In this document: positions 4,161 through 11,870 of the stretch, one piece after another
How positions within the stretch are numbered: the first letter of the stretch is position 1
How the letters are laid out: every line of letters begins with the position of its first letter
From: Desulfuromonadaceae bacterium
Lineage (GTDB): Bacteria > Desulfobacterota > Desulfuromonadia > Geobacterales > Pseudopelobacteraceae
Assembly: GCA_028688955.1 (NCBI GenBank)
Contig: JAQTXD010000021.1
Location: 1-45,435 of the forward strand
Direction of reading: 5' to 3'
Length of the DNA stretch: 45,435 nt
Notes under the pieces: model-generated
What the model saw: the letters and a program-made list of their open reading frames with translations, nothing else
What the model was told of the DNA's origin: nothing
Database searches by the model: none
Position numbers and translations under genes: made by a program

Positions 4161-4844
4161 CTAACTCGCCAGCTTCTTTGCCCAGTGTTCGCGTTCGAAC
4201 GGCCAGTATTCTTGCATCATATCAACGAGACCTGACATGCGTGACTTGAATTCTGCCCGAAAACCATCCTGCTCCGCATAAACCCGTTTGTCAGTGATGC
4301 TTTGACAAAGCTCCTGACCGAGTGAACGTGCTTTGGTAAAGAGGATTTCCTCGTTTGGGAAAGTCCTGATGCCTGCGATAGCAGATCCGATCCCTCCGAC
4401 TGAGTTAGCCCCGAGAGTGTTCGCGAAACGGCTCATGTATGCCAGTACTTCCTCGTCTTCACCGCCACCAGAGGTTTCAACCATGGCAGCATACTTACCC
4501 TCAAGTGCCATGCAGTGGATCAGGCCATTGCACCGATCAAAGAGAGCTTTCATCTGGGCTGAAACACTCCAGATGTAATTCGGACTGGCTAAAATAAAAC
4601 CGTCACAAGCAAGCAGTTTCTCTTTGATTAGTTCGTAGTCGTCATTGATGTTGCAGATGCCGGTCGTGTGACAGACATCGCACGCGACACATGGTTGGAC
4701 ATTAAGAGTTTTCAGAGAGAGTATTTCAGTTTCACCACCGACTGCTTCTACCCCAGAGATGACTTCATCGAGCAAGCGTCCGGTGTTGCCCTGCATTCCG
4801 CGTGGGCTGGCTATTATGGCGAGTATTTTCAATGTGTACCTCAC
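4161..4844 (-). CDS. Iron-sulfur flavoprotein (NADPH-dependent FMN reductase fold)
   Basis: A 227-residue flavodoxin-fold protein of the iron-sulfur flavoprotein (Isf) group. After the first beta strand, ASPRGMQGNTGRLLDEV (residues 12-28) is the FMN phosphate loop. C52, C55, C58 and C64 form a compact C-x2-C-x2-C-x5-C motif, which in Isf proteins holds a 4Fe-4S cluster beside the FMN. LASPNYIWSVSAQMKALFDR (about 85-104) is the second flavin loop. Archaeal and bacterial relatives reduce oxygen, peroxide or quinones. The start overlaps the end of the selenoprotein gene by 4 bp (ATGA), linking the two redox proteins in one transcript. Confidence 0.88.
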   Translation of the reverse strand: MRYTLKILAIIASPRGMQGNTGRLLDEVISGVEAVGGETEILSLKTLNVQPCVACDVCHTTGICNINDDYELIKEKLLACDGFILASPNYIWSVSAQMKALFDRCNGLIHCMALEGKYAAMVETSGGGEDEEVLAYMSRFANTLGANSVGGIGSAIAGIRTFPNEEILFTKARSLGQELCQSITDKRVYAEQDGFRAEFKSRMSGLVDMMQEYWPFEREHWAKKLAS

Positions 4845-5446
4845 TTTTTTCCGATCAGTCGGACAAAATCATCGTAAGCGCCGAATCCTGCAACTCTCTT
4901 TCCTTCGTAGAGATGGGTCGGAACAGCTGTTATCCGCATCTCTCTGGACCGCTGCCAGTCGGCGTCAACCGCTGATGCGTAGTTCCGTAATTCGAGAACC
5001 GTACGTGCTTCATCCGGCGGAAGTCCAACGGATGTGGCAATCGATATCAGCTCGTCAATCAGCCCGATGTTGATGCCATCGACGAAATAGGCCCGGTAGA
5101 CCGCATGATGGAACTGCTCTCCCATGCCCTGTGCCTCAGCCCATTTTCCCAGTTCCTGGGCACGCCTGCTGTTGTAGGTGCGCGATCGGGTTGTCAACGG
5201 CAGCCCTTCAGCAGCGGCCACTTGTGTGAGTCTGGACTGCATCTCCGCTATCATCGCCTCACGCCCGGCAAACATCTCCGACAGTTCCATCCCTCCTTCC
5301 GGTGTTTCCGGGTGGAGTGGGAAGGCTGTATAATGCAGTTCAACCCCGTATTCTTTGTGTAGTCGGTCGGTACGCACGGTACCGAGATAACACCATGGTC
5401 AGACGTAGTCGAAAAAGACCTCTACGATGAGTGTGTCGTTCATCAT
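4841..5446 (-). CDS. DsbA family oxidoreductase (FrnE-like), probable selenoprotein with UGA at codon 16
   Basis: Reading from ATGATG at 5446, the frame gives MMNDTLIVEVFFDYV, an in-frame TGA (5401-5399), then PWCYLGTVRTDRLHKEY and on to a stop at 4841, 201 residues in all. In FrnE-like DsbA proteins this place holds the C-P-W-C redox motif, so TGA replaces the first, nucleophilic Cys and the motif becomes U-P-W-C. Both flanks are conserved in one frame, a hairpin with SECIS features follows, and GGGGGAA precedes the start. A standard gene caller would start at the GTG at 5377 and lose the active site. The rest (FPLHPETPEGG, a helical insert, then AVPTHLYEGKRVAGFGAYDDFVRLI) fits the family. 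It lies just upstream of the iron-sulfur flavoprotein. A nonsense mutation is the alternative. Confidence 0.85.
5367..5401 (-). promoter_or_regulatory. Candidate bacterial SECIS element with its UGA codon
   Basis: Downstream of the TGA at 5401-5399 come 13 nt and then a perfect 7-bp stem, TCGGTAC (5385-5379) pairing with GTACCGA (5373-5367), closed by a 5-nt loop CGTGC (5378-5374). The loop starts 20 nt after the UGA and has G at its second position followed by U. Known bacterial SECIS elements bind SelB with an apical loop about 16-37 nt after UGA and a G in the first two loop positions, so spacing and loop both fit. The hairpin lies inside the coding sequence, as in E. coli fdhF. Confidence 0.75.
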
Positions 5447-5593
5447 TATTCCCCCTGTCTTTGTGCCACAAAATTGAGCAGATTCGCTACTTCCTGACTA
5501 CCGCTGATAGATAGCAGCATATCAGGTGAGCCCTATCATGTCGTTATCAAATATAACTGGCACCCAGCGTTTTTCAAGAAAGATATTCTTCTC
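5446..5593 (-). pseudogene. Frameshifted C-terminal fragment of an unrecognised protein
   Basis: The gap between the small cupin and the selenoprotein reads like decayed coding sequence. One frame gives EKNIFLEKRWVPVIFDND followed by MIGLT and a TGA; the neighbouring frame continues SPDMLLSISGSQEVANLLNF, then VAQRQGE and TAA. Joined by a one-base shift near 5517-5525 they form about 49 plausible residues. The final TAA overlaps the selenoprotein ATG by one base (TAATG), an arrangement typical of a real upstream gene in an operon. The upper end overlaps the cupin 3' end. The family is not recognised. Confidence 0.35.
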
Positions 5594-10494: not shown

Positions 10495-11870
10495 GGTAGT
10501 GTAAAGAATTTTTCGCTTTTTTCATGGCAGTGCTTCGTTTTCAGTTAGGCCGCCTCTTCAATTTCGAATTTCAATTCAAGGTCCTGTTCTTTGAGAAGAT
10601 CAATATTCAGATAGCGTTTCGAGCCCCACTGGGTTCCGGCAATATGTCTGAGGCGTGCTGCGCACAGCATCAGCGCCGAATGTCCGTCCGGGAAGGCGCC
10701 CACCACTCTTGTCCGCCTCCGTATTTCCCGCATGATCCGTTCCAAAGCGTTATTGGTTCTGATCCGGATGCGGTGCTCGCGGGGGAAGTCGTAATAGCTC
10801 AGGGTTTCAATAATCGAATCCTGAACTTTTTTGGCTGCTTCCCTGAGTTTCAGTGCGGTTAGTTTGGCAAAGACCGCTTCGGCTTTTTCTATGGCGGCTT
10901 TTTTGTCTTCCGACGCATGAATCGCCTTGAGCATGGCCGCTACTTCCGACATCCGCCTGGCCGGCACGACACTAAAGATGTTGCGGTAGAAATGGACCGT
11001 ACAGCGTTGCCATTTGCTTTCCGGATAGAAATCTGCCAGGGATTCTGTCAAGCCCATACAGGCATCGGTGATGAAAAGGCGGACACCGGTCAGACCCCGT
11101 TGTTTCAGGTGGTGCAGGAAGTTAGACCAACCGGCCTTGTCTTCCTTTGCTCCTTCACAAACACCGAGAATCTTGCGGAAGCCCTGGTCATCGACACCGA
11201 TGGCGACCAATACGGAGACATTGCAGACTTCGCCGCCCCAGGAGCGCTTCAGGACTATGCCGTCCAGGTATACGTACGGATGTTCGCCGGTAATCTGGCG
11301 ATTCCGCCATTCTTCAATCTTAGCGTAGACCTTTTTATTGAGGTTACTGATGGTGCCAGGACTAACCTTAGTGCCCCACAGGGTTTCGGTTATATCCTTG
11401 ATGCGTCTGACGGAAACACCGGCCAGATACATCTCGATCAGCGACTCCTCAACTGAGGCTTCCCGGCGGCGGTAACGCTCGATAATCGCTGTCTCAAAGG
11501 TCTGTTGCCGCAGTTTCGGAACATTGAGAGTTACCTCTCCTGCCTTGGTGTGAAGCGTGCGCTGATAATGGCCTGCCCGGGTATCGGTTCTGGCATCGTT
11601 GCGCTGATATTTCTCAGCGTTGCAAAGTCGATCCGCTTCGGCATCAAGCATGTTATTAAGAGTCTCCTCAACTGTATTTCTGACCATTTCACCGAGATGG
11701 TCGCGAATGGCACTCTCATTCGGTTGGATTATTTGCGTCTTTTTAGTAGAATGTTCGGCCACGGCAGTGTTCTCCTTTGTGGTGGGATTTGCGTTTGGCG
11801 ACACAATTCTAACCAATTTGAAACACTGCCGTGACTCTTTTTAAAAAAGCGAAAAATATTTTATGTTATC
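10495..11870. mobile_element. IS256-family insertion sequence with 8-bp target duplication
   Basis: The element spans about 1376 bp. The 8-bp direct repeat TTATGCTG flanks it at 10487-10494 and 11871-11878, matching the 8-9 bp duplications made by IS256 elements. Its ends are 28-bp imperfect inverted repeats: the left starts GGTAGTGTAAAG, the right (read inward) GATAACATAAAA, and both continue into ATTTTTCGCTTTTTT; 22 of 28 positions agree. The only gene inside is the transposase. Preservation of the target duplication and of the full reading frame points to a fairly recent insertion, here between a tRNA-like att fragment and an integrase remnant. Confidence 0.85.
10545..11762 (-). CDS. IS256-family transposase
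   Basis: A DDE transposase of the IS256/Mutator family. Counting from the preferred GTG at 11762, it has 405 residues, with the catalytic acids at D167 (YVYLDGI), D233 (FITDACMGL) and E341 (NNALERIMREIRRR). The blocks AGHYQRTLHTKAGEVTLNVP and YLAGVSVRRIKDITE are family hallmarks, as is CTVHFYRNI between the second Asp and the Glu. The GTG is preferred because AAAGGAG lies 9 nt upstream; an ATG at 11816 would add 18 unconserved residues. The frame is complete, so the element may still be active. Confidence 0.9.
   Translation of the reverse strand: MAEHSTKKTQIIQPNESAIRDHLGEMVRNTVEETLNNMLDAEADRLCNAEKYQRNDARTDTRAGHYQRTLHTKAGEVTLNVPKLRQQTFETAIIERYRRREASVEESLIEMYLAGVSVRRIKDITETLWGTKVSPGTISNLNKKVYAKIEEWRNRQITGEHPYVYLDGIVLKRSWGGEVCNVSVLVAIGVDDQGFRKILGVCEGAKEDKAGWSNFLHHLKQRGLTGVRLFITDACMGLTESLADFYPESKWQRCTVHFYRNIFSVVPARRMSEVAAMLKAIHASEDKKAAIEKAEAVFAKLTALKLREAAKKVQDSIIETLSYYDFPREHRIRIRTNNALERIMREIRRRTRVVGAFPDGHSALMLCAARLRHIAGTQWGSKRYLNIDLLKEQDLELKFEIEEAA

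Follow-up and report, generated by a model that had tools for sequence, protein, structure and literature searches.

A gene on the minus strand of the 45,435-nucleotide stretch of a Desulfuromonadaceae genome analysed here (hereafter the window) very probably encodes a selenoprotein, a FrnE/DsbA-like oxidoreductase in which an in-frame TGA at the active site would be read as selenocysteine (Sec). From comparison of its sequence with relatives I put the probability of this reading at roughly 0.96. The evidence favours Sec over a nonsense mutation at this codon by a wide margin, in agreement with a preliminary description of the window, and none of the outcomes which that description named as counting against Sec, among them a TGA unique to this assembly and a hairpin that is not conserved, was found.

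A reading frame that continues through UGA

Standard ORF calling yields a 178-residue product from a GTG start (5377-4841, minus strand) that, as the preliminary description had stated, lacks the redox motif. Reading through the TGA instead gives 201 residues, MMNDTLIVEVFFDYV-U-PWCYLG..., from ATG 5446 or from ATG 5443, the latter of which lines up with the start of several relatives. The same description had placed the TGA at the first active-site position (FFDYV-U-PWCYLG), behind a ribosome-binding site and an ATGATG start, and both are borne out in the minus-strand frame 5446-4841 (Table 1). Residues flanking the TGA on both sides are conserved in the alignment of relatives, and four residues upstream of it (E9, F11, D13, Y14) do not vary among 13 aligned sequences. 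Comparison shows, at the level of sequence, that a conserved FrnE/DsbA frame passes through the UGA at codon 16. The read-through product would contain Sec16 and a single cysteine, Cys19, and has no C-terminal CX4C. The gene also ends in TGA (4843-4841). Scans for promoters and terminators returned matches at chance level only.

Table 1. Features of the selenoprotein candidate and its downstream neighbours in the window
Feature	Position	Strand	Basis or remark
Probable Sec-containing FrnE/DsbA-like thiol-disulfide oxidoreductase	4841..5446	minus	Pfam, sequence, fold, read-through frame
In-frame TGA, probably read as selenocysteine; first residue of U-P-W-C active site	5399..5401	minus	
Ribosome-binding site AGGGGG (5456-5451) and ATGATG start	5441..5456	minus	sequence, alignment with relatives
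Bacterial SECIS-like hairpin, 7-bp stem, loop CGTGC	5367..5385	minus	folding and comparison with relatives
Downstream FMN reductase / iron-sulfur-flavoprotein-like protein, CX2CX2CX5C	4161..4844	minus	Pfam FMN_red; neighbour, not a required part
Tiny Cys-bearing ORF, 54 aa, at least one CxxC	4157-3993	minus	
Tiny Cys-bearing ORF, 69 aa, at least one CxxC	3986-3777	minus	

The proposed FrnE/DsbA-like identity is supported by Pfam, by sequence and by the predicted fold. Pfam DSBA matches residues 8-193 of the read-through protein at 117.3 bits, and no NCBIfam model matched it. With a profile of 13 relatives, the best sequence match in the PDB is the FrnE of Deinococcus radiodurans (5cp1, E 3.1e-29), and an AlphaFold model of the protein (pLDDT 85.4) finds as its top fold matches the same D. 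radiodurans FrnE and Streptomyces SCO1869, followed by YjbH and HCCA isomerases. D. radiodurans FrnE (DR_0659; PDB 5cp1, 5cnw, 5co3), described as a predicted cytoplasmic member of the DsbA family (PMC8945050), has its CPWC-type active site in the same place. There the present protein reads UPWC, with probable Sec where D. radiodurans has Cys, and it also differs in lacking the C-terminal CX4C tail. Many FrnE proteins, but not all, possess this motif. According to the same source, the FrnE proteins of D. maricopensis and S. roseofulvus are likewise without a C-terminal CX4C (PMC8945050), so the missing motif does not bar membership of the FrnE family.

This kind of selenoprotein is already known, under the name FrnE; to it the present gene contributes a representative from bacteria, backed by strong comparative evidence. 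DsbA-like UxxC selenoproteins of COG2761 have been on record since 2005, in a Sargasso Sea study that reports nine of them with UXXC and whose figure legend refers to a predicted bacterial SECIS for a DsbA-like selenoprotein (PMC1088965). GOS data yielded 63 proteins labelled 'DsbA 1' (pfam01323, UxxC; PMC2398784), and entries with PF01323 and UxxC appear as 'DsbA-like protein' in a 2022 review (PMC9312934) and as 'DsbA-like protein form 1' in a 2026 review (PMC13188914). Another survey gives DsbA-like selenoproteins for Anaeromyxobacter, Desulfovibrio desulfuricans and Desulfotomaculum, and none in three Geobacter rows (PMC1794560). COG2761 is frnE, with DR0659 listed under it (PMC1978522). 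As far as these descriptions go, the present protein is like the prokaryotic DsbA-like selenoproteins in the COG of frnE, in Pfam PF01323 and in a UxxC with Sec first, but it comes from Geobacterales and is present in two copies in a single genome. SelenoDB 2.0 has a selenoprotein family 'FrnE (DsbA)' (PMC3965025) and an algal survey reports Sec-containing FrnE in Mamiellophyceae (PMC6627142); by name and description these too are FrnE proteins with Sec, but they are eukaryotic members.

Standard annotation would shorten the gene and drop its active site. The present result aids the correct annotation of such genes in the phylum. It also identifies cultured carriers, among them Geobacter argillaceus ATCC BAA-1139 (L066), Pelotalea chapellei DSM 13688 (L068) and Geomonas limicola Red745 (L071), each with TGA at this codon, where the role of cytoplasmic DsbA-fold selenoenzymes could be tested.

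The UGA codon and its hairpin among relatives

This assembly is not alone in having the TGA. A second frnE copy in the same genome (G000:C19:35191-35787, or L001:1486-2082; hereafter the C19 copy) likewise carries TGA at this position, along with a stem-loop identical to that of the window, the two proteins being about 74% identical. Across 76 genomes of the family, 22 gave a total of 25 matches, of which 20 (in 19 genomes) have TGA, two have a Cys codon and three are fragments that stop short of the site; TGA thus accounts for 20 of the 22 matches that span the codon. Matches were found in 81 of 395 genomes of the phylum, 83 in all. Sixty-seven of them contain one TGA, which lies at this codon in all 51 that were read there, and 16 contain no stop, 14 with Cys and two not spanning the site. 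The best 80 of 524 relatives from a GTDB scan (the named loci), a set which, having been gathered with a Sec query, leans towards that query's close kin and overlaps in genomes with the family and phylum searches, comprise 78 TGA and two Cys forms. Selenocysteine is the commoner state, and Cys the rarer, among relatives retrieved with this query. The alignment places the UGA opposite the Cys of homologues, between conserved flanks.

The preliminary description had proposed reading this codon in homologues: TGA predominates, although one close relative (G044, 75% identity) carries TGT. That gene (G044:C86:3062-3661, represented by L028 and L052) retains six of the seven hairpin pairs in spite of its TGT, and its genome has both selB and tRNA-Sec; it looks, from sequence, like a recent change from Sec to Cys. 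A second frnE copy in another genome (G058), 45% identical, has TGC at the codon. tRNA-Sec is present in 18 of 19 family genomes with a TGA frnE versus 40 of the other 57, a modest enrichment (p 0.024). The exception, G017, is 96% complete and contains a TGA frnE but neither tRNA-Sec nor selB over the cut-off; either contigs are missing or the TGA frnE would be stranded there.

In eukaryotic selenoproteins the SECIS element lies elsewhere in the mRNA; here, comparison places a SECIS-like hairpin with a G in its apical loop just 3' of the UGA. The stem pairs 5385-5379 with 5373-5367 around a loop at 5378-5374. The 7-bp stem and 5-nt loop are present as first described but their distance from the TGA needs correction, since the 20 nt given for the hairpin is the distance to the start of the loop, the stem itself starting 13 nt past the TGA. 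All 78 named TGA loci share the G noted at loop position 2, its codon specifying Val in 51 of them and Gly in the other 27. This G (5377) is also the first base of the GTG at which the standard ORF starts.

Taken by itself, the window sequence gives weak evidence for the hairpin, which becomes convincing only through comparison with relatives. In single-sequence folding the window hairpin has a z-score of -1.01, with 28 of 200 shuffles folding at least as well. Among six TGA sequences folded singly, the hairpin is in the best structure of four and absent in two (L068 and L084), z-scores ranging from -1.76 to 0.28, and Rfam gave just one match at the hairpin, no better than chance. The picture differs in a set of 75 sequences (the window, the C19 copy and 73 of the 78 named TGA loci, five identical in the first 40 nt having been dropped). 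The seven stem pairs are formed in 95.4% of 525 cells, versus at most 47.2% in slid controls; both sides of a pair have changed in 46 cells versus 12.8 in shuffles (none of 500 as high), and five of the stem pairs include such a change, a number reached by four of 500 shuffles. RNAalifold independently predicts five of the seven pairs. Pair columns 20-32 are unpaired in 17 of the 75 sequences. The hairpin is thus conserved with compensatory changes. Silent sites agree: in 22 sequences (the window, the C19 copy and 20 named loci with an identity of 65% or more), the fraction of same-residue pairs with a synonymous difference is 0.09 at the hairpin codons versus 0.48 elsewhere in the gene, the lowest value among 197 segments compared. 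Such comparison shows, as far as sequences can tell, selection for a hairpin in the RNA that lies shortly after the UGA.

At greater evolutionary distance the hairpin also distinguishes the TGA forms from the Cys forms. Among distant TGA sequences (27-45% identity), 18 of 20 hold six or seven of the seven pairs in register, and in the remaining two (L194 and L206) the hairpin, with 10 bp and a GGCG loop, is displaced to another register. The distant Cys sequences (26-41% identity), FrnE-like relatives in the phylum (G459, G366, G194 and 11 others), have the same domain with CPFC or CPYC, but none of the 14 reaches six pairs in the TGA-form register, each retaining two to five; in one of them (L176) an unrelated stem of 8 bp is possible. 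The difference in retention has p = 4e-6, although many of these sequences are related and do not count as independent events. Besides L028/L052, with the six pairs mentioned above, the closer Cys relatives hold four pairs (L048) and two (L101).

Selenocysteine machinery and other readings of the TGA

All four genes of the Sec pathway, for which a search had been proposed, were found in the genome: selA (605.9 bits), selB (358.1 bits) and tRNA-Sec (selC, 77.6 bits) are grouped on contig C27, and selD (371.9 bits) is on contig C60. The selD product, read by eye, is the Cys form and starts GAGCAAK. Formate dehydrogenase alpha and AhpC-TSA, used as queries against the genome, gave 15 and 11 matches respectively, none of them a TGA-containing gene.

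By the known bacterial pathway, SelA would make Sec-tRNA(Sec) with selenophosphate from SelD, and SelB, held with Sec-tRNA(Sec) at the UGA by hairpin 5385-5367, would insert selenocysteine. Judging from the family and the DsbA fold, the product would be a soluble cytoplasmic oxidoreductase, with the selenol of Sec16 as the nucleophile towards disulfides and Cys19 as the residue that resolves the selenenylsulfide. Because the CX4C proposed to regenerate D. radiodurans FrnE is missing, another electron donor would be needed, for which thioredoxin and a small thiol are candidates.

Three other readings of the TGA were weighed and rejected on the recurrence of the TGA, the conserved flanks, the hairpin and the use of TGA as the gene's own stop. 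In favour of a nonsense mutation or a sequencing error, either of which would have broken a Cys-containing frnE, are the Cys homologues, one of them as close as G044, and an assembly of 212 contigs with 5.91% contamination; the mutated gene would be a pseudogene. Yet the same TGA stands in the second copy of this genome and at nearly all named loci, the frame is intact with conserved residues before and after it, and the hairpin is conserved with its silent sites constrained, which leaves this reading a negligible chance. Scarcely any probability attaches either to a true start at GTG 5377, with a shortened protein and the upstream frame untranslated. It is what standard ORF calling yields, but a GTG occurs there in only 49 of the 78 named TGA loci, the other 29 having GGG, GGT, GGA, GGC, GTC or GTT; the invariant residues upstream would fall outside the protein, and according to the model its first strand and active site would go missing.

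Slightly less improbable, but still very improbable, is a residue other than Sec at the TGA, whether Trp or Cys under an altered code or the outcome of unspecific readthrough. A reading frame alone cannot reveal the residue inserted, but in distant relatives a hairpin in this register accompanies TGA and not Cys, the genome has the full Sec pathway, and TGA must still work as a stop because the gene itself ends in one. Insertion of selenocysteine is the reading that I retain.

Neighbouring genes

The gene is followed by what I take to be an iron-sulfur flavoprotein and, between this and an isochorismatase-like gene, by the two tiny Cys-bearing ORFs, the longer of which has no Pfam or NCBIfam match. 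The flavoprotein and the tiny Cys proteins are thus where the preliminary description put them, but its suggestion of a dedicated thiol/selenol redox module did not hold up. By tblastn, the flavoprotein adjoins frnE clearly at one of the 80 named loci (L050, which retains the isochorismatase as well) and by a weak match at another (L063), some of these loci being so short that neighbours may be cut off. When 505 neighbouring ORFs, each 90 aa or longer and no further than 3.5 kb from frnE, were clustered across 82 loci (the 80 named loci, the C19 copy and the window), no cluster occurred at more than four of the 82. A frnE/flavoprotein module as a general arrangement was therefore rejected.

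The flavoprotein does adjoin both frnE copies of this genome. Because both copies and one relative have it, a narrower version can be put forward, in which Sec-FrnE and the iron-sulfur-like flavoprotein form a fixed pair in one Geobacterales lineage, the flavoprotein regenerating Sec16 in place of CX4C; I regard this as unlikely. If true, the selenol enzyme would be served by a flavin/Fe-S reductase dedicated to it.

Downstream of the C19 frnE there is a 330-aa ORF, by eye a dehydrogenase of the quinone-oxidoreductase type, and then the flavoprotein paralog, which is 75% identical to the flavoprotein of the window. Elsewhere in the window, an ORF at 10545-11816 resembles, by eye, an IS256-type transposase.
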